Shown here in pieces: positions 36,217-43,682 of a stretch of 64,000 bases of DNA. The position numbers and the translations under genes were made by a program. The notes under the pieces were generated by a model. The model ran no database searches. It saw nothing but the letters and a program-made list of their open reading frames with translations, and had not been told where the DNA came from. Position 1 is the first letter of the stretch; every line of letters begins with the position of its first letter. Origin of the DNA: Leptolyngbyaceae cyanobacterium (lineage in GTDB: Bacteria; Cyanobacteriota; Cyanobacteriia; Cyanobacteriales; Aerosakkonemataceae); the NCBI GenBank assembly GCA_036703985.1, contig DATNQN010000137.1:1-64000 (forward strand), read 5' to 3'.

Positions 36217-37431
36217 ATGTTACCAAGCGAACTATTAATTTACCGATACACTGGCGAAACCATTATCCCCAAACGCCTAAAAATTGACGATCGCAATTTA
36301 GAAATGGCGATCGATCTAATTAATTGCTTCCAAGAATCTGTCGGTAAAAGACAAGGAGAATTAGATAGCCAATTGTTAGAATTAGAAGGCGATCGACCTG
36401 AATATCGCATTCTCAGAGGATTCGTTCATATCCTCAAAAGTAGCTTCTCTACCTTTGAGATTGTCAGTCCTTTAGAACCCCTAGAATTGCGTCAGAAAGT
36501 ATTTGCTTTATCTGCCAGATCCGTTCCCAGTTCCCACTCATCACTAGAAGTTCTCGACGTTTTAGCAAATAAACTCAGTCAAGAATTAAAAAAAGAAGTT
36601 TTACCAGATCACATCCGTGCAGGTTTGTATGCAGATTTGCAAGAAAATCGCATTTTAACCCAATTCGATCCACCAACTCCAGAAGCGGTTTTACATAGAT
36701 ATAATTTATCACAAGTGCAAGGTATTTTCTATCGCGCCAGTCAATTAACTTTAAACGCTCATCGCAATGTTCCAGGCGAATATAAATTACTATTTCGCTA
36801 TCTGAAATTATTTCAATTGATGGCATATATTGAAGGAGATGCGGATCATGGTTTTACCATTACCATTGATGGGCCAACAAGTTTATTTAAACCTAGTACG
36901 AGATATGGATTAGCGATCGCAAAACTCATCCCCGCATTATTGCACGTTACCAAATGGAGTCTCAACGCCACTTTACAAACTAGAGATATCTATACTGGTA
37001 AAGACAAAACTGGTAAATTTTCCCTCAATTCTGATTGTGGATTAGAAACTCATTATCCCCCAGGTAAACCTTATGACAGTATGTTAGAAGCATCTTTTGC
37101 TAACCGTTGGGAAAGTTTAAAAACAGATTGGGTTTTAGAGAGAGAAGTCGATTTAATTCCCATTCCCGGTAGCGTGATCATTCCCGATTTCCGCTTAGTA
37201 CATCCCGATGGCAGAAGTTATTTATTAGAAATAGTTGGTTATTGGCGTCCTGAGTATTTGCAAAAGAAATTTGCTCAGGCGAGAAAGGCAGAAAGTGACA
37301 ATTTAATTTTGGCTGTTTCAGAAAGATTAAACTTAGAAAATGCTGGTGTAAAGGTGAAGGATACACCAGCTAAAATCATCTGGTTTAAGGATAAATTATC
37401 ACCGAAGGCAGTGTTAGAAGTGTTAGAATAA
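36217..37431 (+). CDS. DUF790/Bax1-like nuclease, XPB partner
   Basis: 404 residues. The opening (LPSELLIYRYTGETIIPKRL) and the middle FYRASQLTLNAHRNVPGEYK, LLFRYLKLFQLMAYIE are characteristic of DUF790, the family of archaeal Bax1. The C-terminal third holds a nuclease-like core: MLEASFANRW, then VIIPDFRLVHPDG-RSYLLEIVGYW, with the Asp and Glu placed like a PD-(D/E)XK or Bax1 active site. Archaeal Bax1 binds XPB and cuts bubble DNA 3' of the lesion, so this pair may form an excision machine beside UvrABC. It follows the helicase by 111 bp in the same direction. Confidence 0.88.
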   Translation: MLPSELLIYRYTGETIIPKRLKIDDRNLEMAIDLINCFQESVGKRQGELDSQLLELEGDRPEYRILRGFVHILKSSFSTFEIVSPLEPLELRQKVFALSARSVPSSHSSLEVLDVLANKLSQELKKEVLPDHIRAGLYADLQENRILTQFDPPTPEAVLHRYNLSQVQGIFYRASQLTLNAHRNVPGEYKLLFRYLKLFQLMAYIEGDADHGFTITIDGPTSLFKPSTRYGLAIAKLIPALLHVTKWSLNATLQTRDIYTGKDKTGKFSLNSDCGLETHYPPGKPYDSMLEASFANRWESLKTDWVLEREVDLIPIPGSVIIPDFRLVHPDGRSYLLEIVGYWRPEYLQKKFAQARKAESDNLILAVSERLNLENAGVKVKDTPAKIIWFKDKLSPKAVLEVLE

Positions 37432-37454
37432 TTTAATCAGTACTGGAGGTAGAA

Positions 37455-38015
37455 ATGAACTTACAACTAATCAGACGAAAATTTACGGTAAGTCAGTATC
37501 ACCAAATGGCTGATGCTGGTATTCTAAATGAAAATGACCGAGTGGAATTGATTCGAGGAGAAATAGTTGAAATGACACCAATCGGTAGAAGACACGCTGC
37601 TTGTGTAAATAGATTAGTTAGATTATTTATCCAACTTCTTGGAGATAGCATCATACTTTCTCCCCAAAATCCAATTGAATTAGACAATAACTCTCAACCT
37701 CAACCAGATATAGTATTGCTACAACCTCGTCCGGACTTCTATGAATCGCGACTTCCGCAACCGCAAGATATTATTTTATTAGTAGAAGTTGCAGATACAA
37801 CAGTAGAAAGCGATCGAAATATTAAAATACCCCTTTATGCTGAAAATGGAATTAGAGAAACTTGGTTAGTAAATATTAATGAAGAATGGGTCGAAGTTTA
37901 TCGAGAACCATCAACAACAGGGTATCAAAACGTACAGAGATTTCAGCGAGGGGAAAGTTTATCTATACTGGCTTTTCCCGATCTTAATCTGACTGTAGAT
38001 GAAATTTTAGGGTAA
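37455..38015 (+). CDS. Uma2-family (DUF820) PD-(D/E)XK endonuclease-like protein
   Basis: 186 residues. Uma2 hallmarks: YHQMADAGILNENDRVELIRGEIVEM at the start, QPDIVLLQPRPDFY with the first acidic residue, LLVEVADTTVESDRNIKIPLY with the E-x-D pair, and ETWLVN. Uma2 proteins are very abundant in cyanobacteria; a nuclease fold is accepted but function is largely unknown. A strong ribosome site (TGGAGGTAGAA) precedes the ATG, only 23 bp after the Bax1-like gene, so the three genes from 34537 appear to form one operon. Confidence 0.9.
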   Translation: MNLQLIRRKFTVSQYHQMADAGILNENDRVELIRGEIVEMTPIGRRHAACVNRLVRLFIQLLGDSIILSPQNPIELDNNSQPQPDIVLLQPRPDFYESRLPQPQDIILLVEVADTTVESDRNIKIPLYAENGIRETWLVNINEEWVEVYREPSTTGYQNVQRFQRGESLSILAFPDLNLTVDEILG

Positions 38016-38045: not shown

Positions 38046-38537
38046 TCAAAAATCAAACCAATTTTTCTTTTCTACATAAAGTTCTCTCAGCTCTGTCAAT
38101 ATTTCTTCAGATAAGAGGGATTTCACCATATTTACGATTGTTCCCCACTCGAACAACTCCATCACTGATAAGGCATTTTTAAATCGAATGGTGTAAAATT
38201 TTTGCCATAATTCCTGCGCTGGCTTTTTGTGCCAACGTTTCCGCCAAAAAACGAAATCCGACGATGTGGGAGGATTTACTGCCAAAATTGGGGAAAAATC
38301 AGCATAGCTGACAAATCTACTCACTCCTTTTCCATGTACGTGAACGACATAACGCAAGCAGGTGATGCGATAAACATTTTCTAGCGCGAGATGAAACATC
38401 AGCGCAACTGCTTCTTCGGTGATGAATCTTGCTAAGGGGTGCAGGATTGGTGACTTGTGGAGGATTTTCGATTCTCGAATCTTCCACCATGATTCTTGGC
38501 AAATGCTTTGCGATCTCTCCTCTGGAGTTGATACCAT
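38046..38537 (-). CDS. Protein of unknown function (163 aa)
   Basis: 163 residues, no recognised domain. It has mixed helical character, several His and Trp (SWWKIRESKILHKSPILHP, DFVFWRKRWHKKPAQELW) and a C-terminal helical part (VNMVKSLLSEEILTELREL). The start was taken at the ATG at 38537, which lies right beside a 42-bp tandem repeat. It converges on the Uma2 gene with 30 bp between and diverges from an XRE regulator. It may be part of an accessory module, but no function is suggested. Confidence 0.6.
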   Translation of the reverse strand: MVSTPEERSQSICQESWWKIRESKILHKSPILHPLARFITEEAVALMFHLALENVYRITCLRYVVHVHGKGVSRFVSYADFSPILAVNPPTSSDFVFWRKRWHKKPAQELWQKFYTIRFKNALSVMELFEWGTIVNMVKSLLSEEILTELRELYVEKKNWFDF

Positions 38538-38539
38538 AG

Positions 38540-38621
38540 TAGTTAGCCTTTGTTAGTTGAACTCTGTTGACTAATTTGGTTTAGTTAGCCTTTGTTAGTT
38601 GAACTCTGTTGACTAATTTGG
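38540..38621. repeat. 42-bp tandem duplication in a divergent promoter region
   Basis: Two identical 40-bp copies, 38540-38579 and 38582-38621, are offset by 42 bp (4 helical turns). Each contains GTTAGCC, GTTAGTTG and GTTGACTAA sub-words, an iteron-like series, and a partial dyad TTAGT...ACTAA. It sits between the unknown gene (minus) and the XRE regulator (plus), a likely place for an operator. Confidence 0.9.
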
Positions 38622-38717
38622 GGAAATTTAGTGTTCGCCCTTGAGTTTGACAGACTATGGGGGGCGATCACTTTTAAGATATGATTATTTTAAGTTGCAG
38701 TTGCACCGTAGTCAAGC

Positions 38718-38930
38718 ATGGGTCTAGTCAGGCTAAAAATTCGAGAATTGGCAGCAGAGAAAGGCTGGACGCTTAAGGAAGTATCTGATCGTTCTGGTGT
38801 TTTATACAATACGGTCAAAAGCTACGCTCGTCGTCCCGAAATGTCAATGGTTGACTTTACCGCTATTCATAAACTGGCGCGAACGTTTAATGTAAAGATC
38901 GAGGATTTGGTAGAAATTTTGGAGGAATAG
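38718..38930 (+). CDS. XRE-family helix-turn-helix regulator (small)
   Basis: 70 residues, a single Cro/cI-type HTH domain: LKIRELAAEKGWTLKEVSDRSGVLYNTVKSY, then FTAIHKLARTFNVKIEDLVEIL. Such short proteins bind DNA as dimers and often act as antitoxins or autorepressors. A natural target would be the tandem repeat about 100 bp upstream (inference). It is the first gene of the small AT-rich region that ends at the psaB terminator. Confidence 0.88.
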   Translation: MGLVRLKIRELAAEKGWTLKEVSDRSGVLYNTVKSYARRPEMSMVDFTAIHKLARTFNVKIEDLVEILEE

Positions 38931-39065
38931 GCGATCGCTCATTCCTCCTAATCTATCGTTAGTGTATCTTTTTCGTTTAAGCAGGTCAATACTAATTTAA
39001 GCACGTTACATAATATCGAAAAGAAATGCTAAGATTTAGGCGTTGTCCTTCGTTTACGATATTTT

Positions 39066-39260
39066 GTGCCTAGAGCAAGTACGGCGATCGGTGTTAGCCC
39101 GATCATTAAAGATATAGTTCAAAAAAAAGCGCGATCATCTCGATTGACGCTAAAAGAAGTTATCCTGATGGGAATGTTAGCGATCGATGAATTAGACGAT
39201 CAACGTCGTCAAGAGCTAGCTGATAAGGTGCATCAGATGCAAGTTAATGGAGAAATTTGA
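39066..39260 (+). CDS. Small putative DNA-binding or antitoxin-like protein
   Basis: 64 residues from a GTG at 39066, with no good ribosome site. The composition (IIKDIVQKKARSSRLTLKEV, LADKVHQMQVNGEI) suggests a short ribbon-helix-helix-like or helical DNA-binding protein, but this is weak. No toxin-like partner is evident downstream. It could be a chance frame. Confidence 0.4.
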   Translation: MPRASTAIGVSPIIKDIVQKKARSSRLTLKEVILMGMLAIDELDDQRRQELADKVHQMQVNGEI

Positions 39261-39350: not shown

Positions 39351-39902
39351 TTATTGCTTTATCTTTTCCTTTGCTATATATGCTCTTAGCCAATTTAAAG
39401 ACCGTTTAGCACCCAGCTTTTTCTGCATATCCTCTAGAGAATTGTAAGGACGGTTATCCTTAATCAATCGTGCGTATCCATCCTTAACACCTGGTATTAA
39501 AGTCAGATTAGCTTTTGTATTGTTAATGAAATCTAAAAACTTTGTAACATCTTGAGGCTCTACTACTCTTTCATTAAGCTTCGATTGCAAAAGAGCTTGT
39601 TCAATAACTCTTTCAGATTCAGGTTGTTTAGCTGCTATTAAGAATACCCAAATTCGCTCAACATTTGCTGTTAATGCGGCTTGATATATTGGTAATCCAG
39701 TTAATAAATGGTATTTATCCTCTTCATCAGTAAGGCAAACTAGAGGAAGAACAGGGTTAAAACCTAGTTCTTCTTTATCCAGACTTTTAGAAATTTTTAC
39801 TATAACATTTTTTGCAGTAATTGAACTGGTTTGTGAAACTTCTATTTGATTCAAAACCATTAATCTTGGTTGACTTTGTATATCCTTGATTAGTTTGACC
39901 AT
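39351..39902 (-). CDS. ParB-like N-domain protein with C-terminal helix-hairpin-helix
   Basis: 183 residues. Residues about 40-95 resemble the ParB/Srx-like fold: NPVLPLVCLTDEEDKYHLLT followed by GLPIYQAALTANVERIWVFL, aligned with the ParB pattern G-H-R-R-x-x-A. The catalytic/CTP-binding Arg pair is replaced by Pro-Ile, so the usual CTPase activity is doubtful. Residues about 130-175 look like one helix-hairpin-helix (LTLIPGVKDGYARLI, SLEDMQKKLGAKRSLNWLRAYI), which binds DNA non-specifically. The start lies one base after the stop of the ParA gene, so the two are translated together. It may be a divergent ParB-type partner; that is inference. Confidence 0.65.
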   Translation of the reverse strand: MVKLIKDIQSQPRLMVLNQIEVSQTSSITAKNVIVKISKSLDKEELGFNPVLPLVCLTDEEDKYHLLTGLPIYQAALTANVERIWVFLIAAKQPESERVIEQALLQSKLNERVVEPQDVTKFLDFINNTKANLTLIPGVKDGYARLIKDNRPYNSLEDMQKKLGAKRSLNWLRAYIAKEKIKQ

Positions 39903-39903
39903 T

Positions 39904-41259
39904 TTATACTCCTACAGTACTTTCAATTTTATCTATTTTTTTCACTATTTCTTTGGTTAAATTAGCAAATTGGATTGCAACATTACCTGCATTATTATGA
40001 TTTTCAGCGAACAAAGAAACAGGTTGACGAATGCAAGAAGCCTGCCCAATATAAGTAGATCTTTTGATCTCAGGCAGTATGGTAATATCCTTAAATCTTT
40101 TTTGAACTAATTGTTTAATTGTAGTATGAAGCTTGACATTTTCAATCATCATTGGAACAATACCAAGTATAATTCCACGCTTACTCATGTTTGCCTGTAT
40201 TTCTTTGGCTCGCCTGATAGGAGTTCGTATCCCATAAACAGAAAAGTATTCCATCTGAGATGGGATAACTATATACTGGCAGGCACATAGTCCATTCATT
40301 GTCATAGTTGAAGTACTACTTGGAGGCGTGTCAATTATTACATAATCATAATCACCAGCTACTCCTGACCTTTGAAGAGCTTTGTTAAGACGAAGTTGAG
40401 GAAATGCGTCAAGAGTAGCAATTGCGTCGTCTACAGTTTTATGGCTACTGGGTAAAACATCAACTGTTCCAGTGCTGCCACTTTTACTCAAGATAGTATT
40501 AAGTGAAGAAGGTTTTATATAATCTTTGTAATTAAAGCCTGTTGTGTTGAAGTCTTTTAAAAATTCTACTAGCTCTTTTCTTTTCTCCAACTCGTCCAAA
40601 ATCTTTTCAAACTCTTCGAGTTTAGATGCTTTGTCAAACTTATCGGCGTAGTTAACTCCCAAAGATAAACTAGCATTCGCTTGCTCGTCCAAATCAACTA
40701 CTAAAACTCGGTGACCAATTTTTGCCAACTCATAGGCAATGTTAACAACCAAGGTTGTTTTACCTACTCCGCCCTTAGATGTATGAATTGCTATTGTACG
40801 CATTTTAACTGTATCCAAAAATGTCTTTAAAAAATCTGCTACACATTGAACTTTCTCAGGATTTTCTATATGGAATTTACATCTTAATTTTGACTGCCAT
40901 TGTGTAAATTCATATATTTCAATTAAAAATGGATCGATTAATACTCCAAATCTTGTATTTGAGTATTTAAGATATGTCTCAAGTTGAATACGGGCATCAT
41001 CATCAATCTTTGTTTGAGCCGTCTTAATTTCCACTAAAAAATTGATGTGCCTACTGAAATCCTCTACGAAAAAATCAACCTCCTTTTGAACCCAAACTAA
41101 AGAATCTGTTTCAGTTAATTTAGGTACTTTAATTTTAAATTCTGGAATCCAGTGAGAGTAGCCACTCTTACGAGGTAAACCTGCCTTCTCTAGCATTGTT
41201 TTAACCAAATGCAAAGATACATAAGCTTCATTATTCCATTCAGAAGACAATTTTGCCAC
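39904..41259 (-). CDS. ParA-type ATPase fused to an N-terminal HsdR-like nuclease domain
   Basis: 451 residues. Residues about 1-135 resemble the N-terminal domain of type I restriction subunit R: QKEVDFFVEDFSRHINFLVEIK, giving Asp62, Glu77 and Lys79 of a PD-(D/E)XK site, then the typical IQLETYLKYSNTRFGVLIDP. Residues about 152-450 are a ParA/MinD ATPase: deviant Walker A TSKGGVGKTTLVVNIAYEL (from 160), VLVVDLDEQANASLSLG, and Walker B YDYVIIDTPPSSTSTMT. ParA proteins move DNA or cargo on the nucleoid. The combination with a nuclease-type domain is unusual. It is followed after one base by a ParB-like gene and lies downstream of psaB behind a terminator. Confidence 0.82.
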   Translation of the reverse strand: MAKLSSEWNNEAYVSLHLVKTMLEKAGLPRKSGYSHWIPEFKIKVPKLTETDSLVWVQKEVDFFVEDFSRHINFLVEIKTAQTKIDDDARIQLETYLKYSNTRFGVLIDPFLIEIYEFTQWQSKLRCKFHIENPEKVQCVADFLKTFLDTVKMRTIAIHTSKGGVGKTTLVVNIAYELAKIGHRVLVVDLDEQANASLSLGVNYADKFDKASKLEEFEKILDELEKRKELVEFLKDFNTTGFNYKDYIKPSSLNTILSKSGSTGTVDVLPSSHKTVDDAIATLDAFPQLRLNKALQRSGVAGDYDYVIIDTPPSSTSTMTMNGLCACQYIVIPSQMEYFSVYGIRTPIRRAKEIQANMSKRGIILGIVPMMIENVKLHTTIKQLVQKRFKDITILPEIKRSTYIGQASCIRQPVSLFAENHNNAGNVAIQFANLTKEIVKKIDKIESTVGV

Positions 41260-41389
41260 GTTTACGCTCCTCTTCCTGTATTCATTATTCCCAGTAATGG
41301 AGTTTGACTAACAGAAGTAAGAAAAAATTTACTTGGCGGTTCTTTAAAAAGGCGTAGTTAATATTAGTAGCAATTTTAATCCCCAAACA

Positions 41390-41419
41390 AAAATCCCCCG
41401 CCCGGAGGCAGGGGATTTT
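41390..41419 (-). terminator. psaAB terminator
   Basis: AAAATCCCC and GGGGATTTT form a 9-bp stem around a GC-rich loop (CGCCCGGAGGCA). On the minus strand the stem is followed by TTTGTTT. It lies about 40 bp beyond the psaB stop codon. Confidence 0.85.
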
Positions 41420-41456: not shown

Positions 41457-43682
41457 TCAACCGAACTTACCAGCAGTAGAGGCAATTAGGAATGCTGCGT
41501 AGGTGAGGATGTAGCCAACGGTGAAGTGAGCTAGACCAACCAAACGAGCTTGAACGATCGACAGAGCAACTGGCTTGTCCTTCCAGCGAACTAAGTTTGC
41601 CAGAGGAGTGCGCTCGTGTGCCCAAACAATAGTTTCGATCAACTCTTGCCAGTAACCGCGCCAGCTAATCAGGAACATGAAGCCAGTAGCCCAAACCAGG
41701 TGTCCGAAGAGGAACATCCAAGACCAGACTGCCAGGTTGTTCATGCCGTAGGGGTTGTACCCGTTGATCAGCTGAGAAGAATACAGCCAGAGGTAGTCGC
41801 GCAGCCAGCCCATTAAGTAAGTAGAAGACTCGTTGAACTGAGCTACGTTGCCTTGCCAAATACCTAGATGCTTCCAGTGGAAGTAGAAGGTTACCCAACC
41901 AATGGTGTTGAGCATCCAGAACATAGCGAGGTAGAAAGAGTCCCAAGCAGAGATGTCGCAAGTACCGCCACGGCCAGGGCCATCACAAGGGAAGGCATAA
42001 CCGAAGTCTTTCTTATCGGGCATCAGCTTAGAACCGCGTGCATCCAACGCACCTTTGACCAAGATCAAGGTGGTGGTGTGCAGACCTAGTGCGATCGCGT
42101 GGTGAACCAAGAAATCGCCAGGGCCAATAGTTAAGAACAAAGAGTTGGTACCGGAATTGATCGCATCCAACCAGCCGGGTAACCAAACGTTGCCGTGGTT
42201 AGGCCAAGCGGTAGAAGCAATGCTATCGGGATTGGACAACAGAGTGTCCATACCGTAGAGCAGTTTCCCGTGAGCAGACTGAATGAACTGAGCGAATACA
42301 GGTTCGATCAGGATTTGCTTTTCAGGAGTGCCGAAGGCAACTACTACGTCGTTGTGTACGTACAGACCCAAGGTATGGAAGCCCAGGAACAGAGACACCC
42401 AACTCAGGTGAGAGATGATCGCCTCTTTGTGCTGCAATACGCGATCGAGAACGTTACCTTTATTTTGTTCGGGGTCGTAGTCCCGCACCCAGAAGATTGC
42501 TCCGTGGGCGAAAGCACCGACCATCAGGAAACCAGCAATGTACTGGTGGTGAGTGTACAGCGCTGCTTGCGTTGTGAAGTCCTGTGCCAAGAAAGCATAG
42601 GGAGGCAGCGAGTACATATGTTGCGCGACCAGAGAGGTTATAACACCCAAACAAGCCAGGTGCCAGCCTAACTGGAAGTGCAGGGAGTTGTTGTAGGTGT
42701 CGTAAATGCCTTGGTGAGGCAAGTTAAACGGCCCTTCAACTTTGATGCCAAAGAAATCCTTGGCATTCATCATTTCTTTGATGCTGTGACCGATTCCGAA
42801 GTTCGTGCGGTACATATGACCGGCCACGATGAACAGAACTGCGATCGCCAAGTGGTGATGAGCGATATCAGTCAGCCACAGAGATTGGGTTTCGGGATGA
42901 AAACCACCTAAGAAGGTGAGAATTGCAGTTCCAGACCCTTGAGCCGTACCAAATACGTGGTCAGCAGTATCTGGGTTTTGAGCGTAAACTCCCCAGTTAC
43001 CAGTGAAGAAAGGTGCTAAACCAGCTGGGTGCGGCAGGGTGCTGAGGAAGTTATCCCAACCTACGTGCTGTCCGCGAGCTTCGGGGATCGCAACGTGAAC
43101 CAAGTGACCTGTCCAAGCCAGAGAGCTAACGCCGAACAAACCAGCTAAGTGGTGATTGAGGCGGGACTCAGCACTCTTGAACCAAGAGAGGCTGGGACGG
43201 AACTTAGGTTGTAGGTGGAGCCAACCAGCAAACAGGAAGACTGCTGAGAGTACGAGGAGGAACAGTGCACCTTGATACAGGTCACCGTTTGTCCGCATAC
43301 CGATGGTGTACCACCACTGGTAAAGACCGGAGTAAGAAATGTTTACCGGATAGTTAGCGCCAGCTTGAGTGAACGCATCAACTGCCGGAGCGCCAAATTG
43401 CGGGTCCCAAATTGCGTGAGCAATGGGTCGTATATTTAGCGGGTCTTTAATCCACTGTTCAAAATTTCCTTGCCATGCGACGTGGAACAGGTTACCGGAA
43501 GTCCACAGGAAGATGATTGCTAAGTGGCCGAAGTGAGAGGCGAAAATCTTTTGGTAAAGATTTTCCTCTGTCATGCCATCGTGACTTTCAAAATCGTGTG
43601 CGGTGGCAATCCCGTACCAAATCCGTCTTGTAGTTGGATCTTGAGCTAGATCCTGGCTAAATTTGGGGAATTTAGTTGCCAT
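41457..43682 (-). CDS. psaB: Photosystem I P700 chlorophyll a apoprotein A2
   Basis: With PsaA it forms the core of photosystem I in the thylakoid membrane and binds P700, the A0/A1 cofactors, the FX cluster and antenna chlorophylls. 741 residues with eleven transmembrane helices, normal length. Recognised segments include [20 protein letters not shown] at the start, the FX-cluster loop [19 protein letters not shown] with both Cys, and the C-terminal end [18 protein letters not shown]. Many conserved His (for instance [17 protein letters not shown]) are chlorophyll ligands. It follows psaA by 25 bp and ends at a clear terminator. Confidence 0.99.

Follow-up and report, generated by a model that had tools for sequence, protein, structure and literature searches.

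A two-gene cyanobacterial cassette joining a nuclease-like domain, a ParA ATPase and a ParB-fold partner

Results

Layout of the gene pair

The window analysed here, a stretch of 64,000 nucleotides from a Leptolyngbyaceae cyanobacterium (contig DATNQN010000137.1), carries on its reverse strand a gene for a nuclease-ParA fusion and, directly behind it, a gene for a ParB-like partner. The features of the locus are as follows.

38046..39260: downstream block (context) of orf64, 39066-39260 (+), HTH70, 38718-38930 (+), and orf163, 38046-38537 (-)
39351..39902 (-): partner CDS, 183 aa, a ParB/sulfiredoxin-fold domain with a C-terminal helix-hairpin-helix (AlphaFold, Foldseek)
39387..39515 (-): helix-hairpin-helix (HhH) region, about residues 130-172 (AlphaFold helices 141-149, 156-163, 165-182; HHH_3 in homologue L003)
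39687..39698 (-): GLPI codons, at the position of the ParB GERR CTP-binding motif (alignments)
39904..41259 (-): nuclease-ParA fusion CDS, 451 aa, GTG start at 41259 (ORF and Pfam)
39904..40803 (-): ParA ATPase domain, residues 153-451, opening with a conserved Met, MRTIAIHTSKGG (AAA_31, sequence)
40753..40779 (-): deviant Walker A, SKGGVGKTT (sequence; AAA_31 1.5e-36)
40804..41259 (-): N-terminal nuclease-like domain (head), residues 1-152 (AlphaFold pLDDT 85.5, Foldseek, HSDR_N_2 3e-4)
41023..41031 (-): E77-I78-K79 codons, E-x-K of PD-(D/E)XK (E in 54/54, K in 53/54)
41074..41076 (-): D62 codon, metal-binding Asp of PD-(D/E)XK (51/53 homologues with a residue there)
41227..41229 (-): E11 codon, conserved Glu opening the first helix (49/51)
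41267..41276 (-): strong Shine-Dalgarno of the fusion gene, GGAAGAGGAG (sequence)
41390..41419 (-): terminator-like hairpin between psaB and the pair, separating the transcripts (inverted repeat, then a T-run)
41457..43682 (-): psaB, the upstream neighbour, context and not cassette (retained next to the pair in several genomes)

The open reading frames and coordinates of both genes agree with a sequence-only reading of the same DNA, down to the start of the partner one base past the stop of the fusion. Homologues of the fusion in many genomes have the same start and length as the 451-aa window protein. The junction between the genes is GTAGGAGTATAAAATG (TAA stop, one base, ATG), and the Shine-Dalgarno of the partner gene (AGGAG) sits within the 3’ end of the ParA gene; because of this arrangement the two genes look translationally coupled. 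The view that the two genes form one unit is upheld. No Rfam family matched near the locus.

The ParA part carries the deviant Walker A motif that had been reported for it and matches Pfam AAA_31 at E=1.5e-36. PADLOC matches to the window pair (PDC-M28B, mad8) are confined to the ParA region, and no PADLOC model matched the partner or the fusion outside this generic region. The methionine at window positions 40801-40803, where the ParA part starts, is kept in nearly all clade-A fusions, and in Thiomargarita RS_2_10 (L053) the head and ParA are separate ORFs, with ParA starting from the conserved Met. These two features make it possible that a second ParA product, lacking the head, arises from the internal methionine. 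Two clade-A loci in two cyanobacteria (L056, L096) encode a ParA without the head and keep the partner.

The head is predicted to be a PD-(D/E)XK nuclease domain

The N-terminal domain had been likened to the N-terminus of HsdR, the type I restriction subunit. With 12 homologues as input, AlphaFold2 modelled residues 1-152 at a mean pLDDT of 85.5 as an alpha-beta-beta-beta-alpha-beta core, in which D62 lies on strand 2 and E77 and K79 close strand 3. Foldseek matched this model in the PDB best to 9y1l, a putative restriction-endonuclease domain (5.5e-5), and then to HsdR (3h1t, 7.6e-4); a profile of the N-domain found nothing among PDB sequences. Pfam matches to the head are HSDR_N_2 (E=3e-4; 21.3 bits, below the gathering score of 25 bits) and PDDEXK_3 (E=2.6e-3, below cut-off), and the head of a clade-B member scores 20.5 bits against HSDR_N_2 (gathering score 25). 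The modelled core and the structural matches uphold a PD-(D/E)XK fold with an intact D62...E77-x-K79, and the similarity to HsdR itself holds at superfamily level only.

Conservation of the acidic and lysine residues had been set beforehand as a test of the nuclease reading. D62, E77 and K79 are invariant across 12 close homologues and near-invariant in a set of 54 diverse N-domains: E77 occurs in 54/54, K79 in 53/54, D62 in 51/53 and E11 in 49/51, and Q92/Y96 are found in 45. These four residues rank among the most conserved columns, the rest of the head diverging beyond recognition by single-sequence search; on these alignments, conservation of D62, E77 and K79 is far above chance. In the more divergent pairs, dN/dS of the head is 0.08-0.28, similar to that of the ParA part, the values from very close pairs being noisy and higher. 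By this measure the head is under purifying selection equal to that on ParA. Near-invariance of the active site and the low dN/dS argue for retained catalysis by the head. One clade-B member (L101) has both D62 and K79 altered.

The partner is ParB-like and lacks the GERR motif

By itself the window partner matches no Pfam family, HTH families included. Its AlphaFold model (pLDDT 81) matched Noc, ParB, KorB, PadC and sulfiredoxin in Foldseek (2e-5 and weaker), and more distant partners match ParB_N weakly, at best at 7.8e-5. The model comparison supports a ParB/Srx fold; of the earlier proposal of a ParB-like N-domain, the fold stands, and the Pfam similarity stays below cut-off. As had been read from the sequence, the GERR position is occupied by GLPI in the alignments; GERR is absent from the partners of all clades, and the region corresponding to ENxQR of ParB reads LLQSKLN. 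The proposed HhH is corroborated by the C-terminal helices of the model and by HHH_3, which matches at 1.4e-7 in a homologue 57% identical to the window partner (L003). Other clades have partners in which HhH-like segments are duplicated or the tail is of the Rho_N/SAP/HeH type.

A recurrent chromosomal locus

The pair lies 3’ of psaB in the window, in Microseira and in Nostoc S13; in Microcoleus FACHB-61 and Cylindrospermum an extra gene stands between psaB and the pair; and remnants of the pair lie 3’ of psaB in Phormidium LEGE 05292 and in one further genome (G134). The block of orf64, HTH and orf163 recurs downstream in several psaB-linked loci and remains conserved next to the pair in further genera, without being part of the cassette. 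The arrangement of psaB, pair and block spans several cyanobacterial families and is decayed in some: G125, G134 and Nostoc flagelliforme retain partner-only remnants, and Microseira has a broken ParA fusion. Because the psaB-linked locus recurs, the pair is, judged by gene order, a long-standing chromosomal resident that has disappeared or decayed in many lineages.

In genomes related to that of the window, the 3’ flank of psaB varies (loci L111-L117). One genome (G140) combines psaB and some of the flanking block with other cargo, by eye an EndoU-like nuclease-type gene. Elsewhere in the window (36217-38015), a DUF790 gene adjoins a gene of the Uma2 family (putative restriction endonuclease).

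Distribution and exchange of the head

Clade-A relatives were sought in 149 genomes of the order, in 391 genomes of the order (11 hits) and in 84,980 GTDB species (19 loci), and were found in cyanobacteria and in Thiotrichaceae of the Thiomargarita/Parabeggiatoa type. Gene exchange between such Thiotrichaceae and cyanobacteria has already been described (PMC5108060). A profile of the partner matched 42/386 cyanobacterial genomes at E<=1e-13; the 13 hits weaker than this are probably ordinary ParBs. A complete gene upstream of the partner nearly always encodes a nuclease-ParA fusion. A search for the pair in other genomes had been suggested, and the pair turned up in about 11% of the sampled cyanobacteria and in Thiotrichaceae; some cyanobacterial plasmids carry it too. 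Viral contigs yielded no relative of the partner. Among phage records the fusion matched only ordinary-looking ParAs, over <80% of its length, and a clade-B partner had no match. The open-access literature yielded no description of a nuclease-ParA fusion.

The genome of the window has a second pair, of clade B, on contig C57 (G000:C57:79224-80012; L083, L090), whose partner has two HhH-like segments. Comparison of N-domain profiles gave P 5.6e-6 for clade A against B (A4-A8) and P 4.3e-19 for B against C (A8-A9), and was not significant for A against C alone (A4-A9). The tree has long branches, and one ordinary ParA joins clade A. A shared origin of the clade-A fusion with clades B and C is favoured by the N-domain comparison of A with B and by the comparison of partner profiles.

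In two genomes (G148, G065), the same ParA and partner occur with a different head, a HEPN_Swt1 domain with the motif RNNWAH (4.8e-40 in G065, the copy tested). These copies lie near the window copy on the tree, and G148 still has, downstream, the HTH and orf163 known from the window locus. This retention suggests that the exchange of a DNase-type for a HEPN head probably took place in situ, at the original chromosomal site.

Plasmid copies and partition

Distant cassettes reside on six plasmids (Nostoc UHCC 0870 unnamed4, 9 and 10; Leptolyngbya pLBA; Pseudanabaena pPg_01 and ABRG53g) and also on megabase-size chromosomal contigs; the window partner itself found no match on plasmids. Another partition system is present on 4/6 of the cassette plasmids, the further partition genes on the three Nostoc plasmids and pPg_01 being ParM, ParAB or a short ParA. 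No ParA-type pair besides the cassette was recognised on the 12.6-kb ABRG53g. Just upstream of the cassette there, positions 10326-10655 of L037 weakly match the restriction-alleviation protein Lar (E 0.003).

The flanks examined contain no shared or iterated parS-like element, a survey that a single or distant parS would escape. Copies of GCGATCGC were considered as parS and rejected, since they are the cyanobacterial HIP1 repeat. ParA matches on non-cyanobacterial plasmids proved, in those whose annotation was inspected, to be ordinary ParAs beside annotated ParBs. We also dropped the idea that the HTH travels with the pair onto plasmids, as the pLBA HTH is by eye a different protein. The suggestion of a mobile-element segregation system is thus weakened: the cassette does occur on plasmids, but it mostly sits next to other partition systems and has no recognisable parS.

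Neighbouring genes

Defence genes were not convincingly enriched near the loci (166 against 75 PADLOC families in the control set, inflated by methyltransferase cross-hits). In 4 of about 23 clade-A loci (Cylindrospermum, Mastigocoleus, G569 and Thiomargarita RS_2_10), the partner is followed after 344-394 bp by a DNA methyltransferase, the four belonging to three unrelated Pfam families (N6_N4, C5 and Dam); this is a post hoc observation:

L016 8290-9159, same strand as partner: methyltransferase
L047 6910-7827, same strand as partner: methyltransferase
L159 1698-2741, same strand as partner: methyltransferase
L053 3515-4120, same strand as partner: methyltransferase

These four loci have no intergenic sequence in common, and the Cylindrospermum and Mastigocoleus linkages may be one event. 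The window copy has no adjacent methyltransferase. Of the traits of type I restriction-modification, there is no SF2 translocase in the chain and no HsdM or HsdS at the window locus; one other locus has an HsdS-like ORF. An ORF similar to type I specificity subunits (L056 6689-8374) lies 128 bp past the partner gene of a locus whose ParA is head-less. In a Nostocales MAG, 44 bp separate a clade-A pair from a NACHT NTPase gene (L050 2130-4214) that precedes it on the same strand.

Discussion

ParA ATPases are movers of DNA and protein cargo. We tentatively read the pair as a ParA-based module for DNA surveillance or interference with a nuclease output, not as an ordinary segregation system, and would give this reading a little under an even chance. 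A more specific version, possible and rather more doubtful, is that a diffusion-ratchet ParA ATPase delivers an interchangeable DNase- or RNase-type head against competing or aberrant DNA, with a CTP-independent ParB-like protein as DNA sensor, and that cyanobacteria and giant sulfur bacteria use it for nucleic-acid surveillance. The ATP-bound ParA part would dimerise and bind nucleoid or element DNA non-specifically. The partner would hold DNA through its HhH (in other clades, through HhH repeats or a Rho_N/SAP-type tail), and its ParB/Srx domain would touch ParA and govern the ATP cycle. On meeting the wrong kind or state of DNA the nuclease head would cut; rather than segregating DNA, the system would thus interfere with competing or aberrant DNA or keep it under surveillance. 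The head would be an interchangeable effector, the DNase-type domain having been swapped for an RNase-type HEPN_Swt1 in one sublineage while ParA and partner were kept. We infer the nuclease activity, its control by ATP, the contact between partner and ParA, the trigger and the target.

We prefer an interference module to segregation or toxin-antitoxin because of the conservation of the catalytic site and the exchange of a DNase-type for an RNase-type head; the same two observations favour the defence role with ATP-driven scanning that the sequence-only reading had offered for the putative nuclease. The cassette behaves as an accessory system might: it is sporadically present, decays in place and has been transferred between cyanobacteria and Thiotrichaceae. 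The methyltransferases near four clade-A loci, noticed post hoc, also speak for interference. Against the interference reading, the window copy has no such neighbour, defence-gene enrichment was unconvincing, the N-domain profiles of clades A and C alone gave no significant match, a long stay at one chromosomal locus is less typical of defence genes, and ABRG53g, with the cassette as its sole recognised ParA-type pair, suits segregation. The head is, by the sequences of the members concerned, dispensable in some of them, because L056 and L096 are head-less and L101 has D62 and K79 changed.

Segregation or positioning, in which ParA would move a plasmid or other cargo tethered by the ParB-like partner, seems to us somewhat unlikely. 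The head would then be a DNA-binding or regulatory module replacing the winged-helix N-domain of type Ia ParAs. An adjacent ParB-fold partner, six cyanobacterial plasmid types with the cassette, ABRG53g with no other recognised ParA, and the ParA-only L056 and L096 are in keeping with this, and pNOB8 ParB and PadC offer precedents for ParB-fold adaptors without the standard ParB role (PMC9178275, PMC12704722). DNA binding alone, however, would not need invariant D, E and K, and the replacement of the head by a HEPN domain, the lack of parS-like repeats in the flanks examined and the chromosomal position of many copies also tell against it. Moreover, partition is not the obvious job of the cassette, because most cassette plasmids, four of six, carry another partition system. 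A toxin-antitoxin or addiction module is a weaker candidate that we regard as unlikely; the nuclease or HEPN head would be a toxin that the ParA domain and the partner keep in check and that is freed when the partner is lost. Two translationally coupled, mobile genes that decay in place would suit such a module, as would the exchange of the head between DNase- and RNase-type domains and the postulate of a HEPN and ParA/Soj dyad as toxin-antitoxin (PMC3710099). Yet the toxin and its putative antitoxin ATPase would form one chain, and L056 and L096 retain ParA and partner without the toxin head.

We think it improbable that the pair serves housekeeping DNA repair or the management of genome copies. 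Its hosts, cyanobacteria and Thiomargarita, are polyploid or giant-celled, and purifying selection together with a long history at a single locus would agree with such a role; against it, the pair occurs in only about a ninth of the sampled cyanobacteria and was repeatedly lost. Least of all do we expect the window pair to be a defunct chromosomal remnant of a plasmid partition system, as the sequence-only reading had allowed. True relics exist in G125, G134 and Nostoc flagelliforme, as does the broken ParA of Microseira, but we reject this reading for the window copy, which is intact and coupled and has all motifs. Homologue dN/dS well below 1 in divergent pairs, with the purifying selection that it indicates, and the orthologous locus in several families run counter to it.

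The nuclease-ParA fusion and its partner are a widespread cyanobacterial cassette, so far undescribed in the open-access literature searched, that is built of known parts and may be an unrecognised system of DNA surveillance or element conflict. A conserved ParA with a built-in nuclease of intact active site and a switch-less ParB partner would tie the partition machinery to nuclease-based conflict, and a nuclease-headed ParA would make it practicable to test whether cleavage of DNA or RNA can be steered by ParA patterning.

With ParABS systems (SopAB/P1 type Ia, Soj/Spo0J) the cassette shares a deviant Walker A ParA and a tightly coupled downstream gene of ParB fold. An N-terminal extension of ParA is likewise common to it and type Ia systems; this is a winged helix there and a PD-(D/E)XK or HEPN domain here. 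ParB of those systems has the GERR CTP motif and an HTH that binds parS, whereas the partner lacks both and has HhH- or SAP-type tails instead, and no parS was found at the flanks of the cassette. A survey of ParB-CTPase folds (Kaljevic et al., 2025) used PF02195 at the gathering threshold and reports only DUF3850 fusions as consistently co-encoded with ParA (PMC12704722). The surveyed proteins resemble the partner in having a ParB/Srx fold beside a ParA gene; the partner differs in lacking the Box II GERR, and no HhH fusion is described in the survey text consulted. As the partner falls below the PF02195 threshold, a survey of this design would have missed it.

The head has the fold, the D...E-x-K site and the Q-x3-Y motif in common with the HsdR N-terminal nuclease (PF13588, HSDR_N_2); HsdR has a helicase motor, whereas the head here is fused to a ParA-family ATPase, with no HsdM or HsdS at the window locus. 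ParI of Pseudomonas putida, an orphan ParA encoded on a genomic island, destabilises IncP-7 plasmids (PMC9178275) and is thus also a chromosomal ParA-family protein possibly acting against plasmids; as described, it has neither a nuclease head nor a ParB-like partner. In the dyad postulated from a survey of HEPN domains, MAE_18760 with ParA/Soj (PMC3710099), a nuclease-type toxin domain is likewise coupled to a ParA-family ATPase. There the HEPN protein is separate; here the HEPN domain is of the Swt1 family, fused to ParA and accompanied by a ParB-like partner, and in the window its place is taken by a nuclease-type head.
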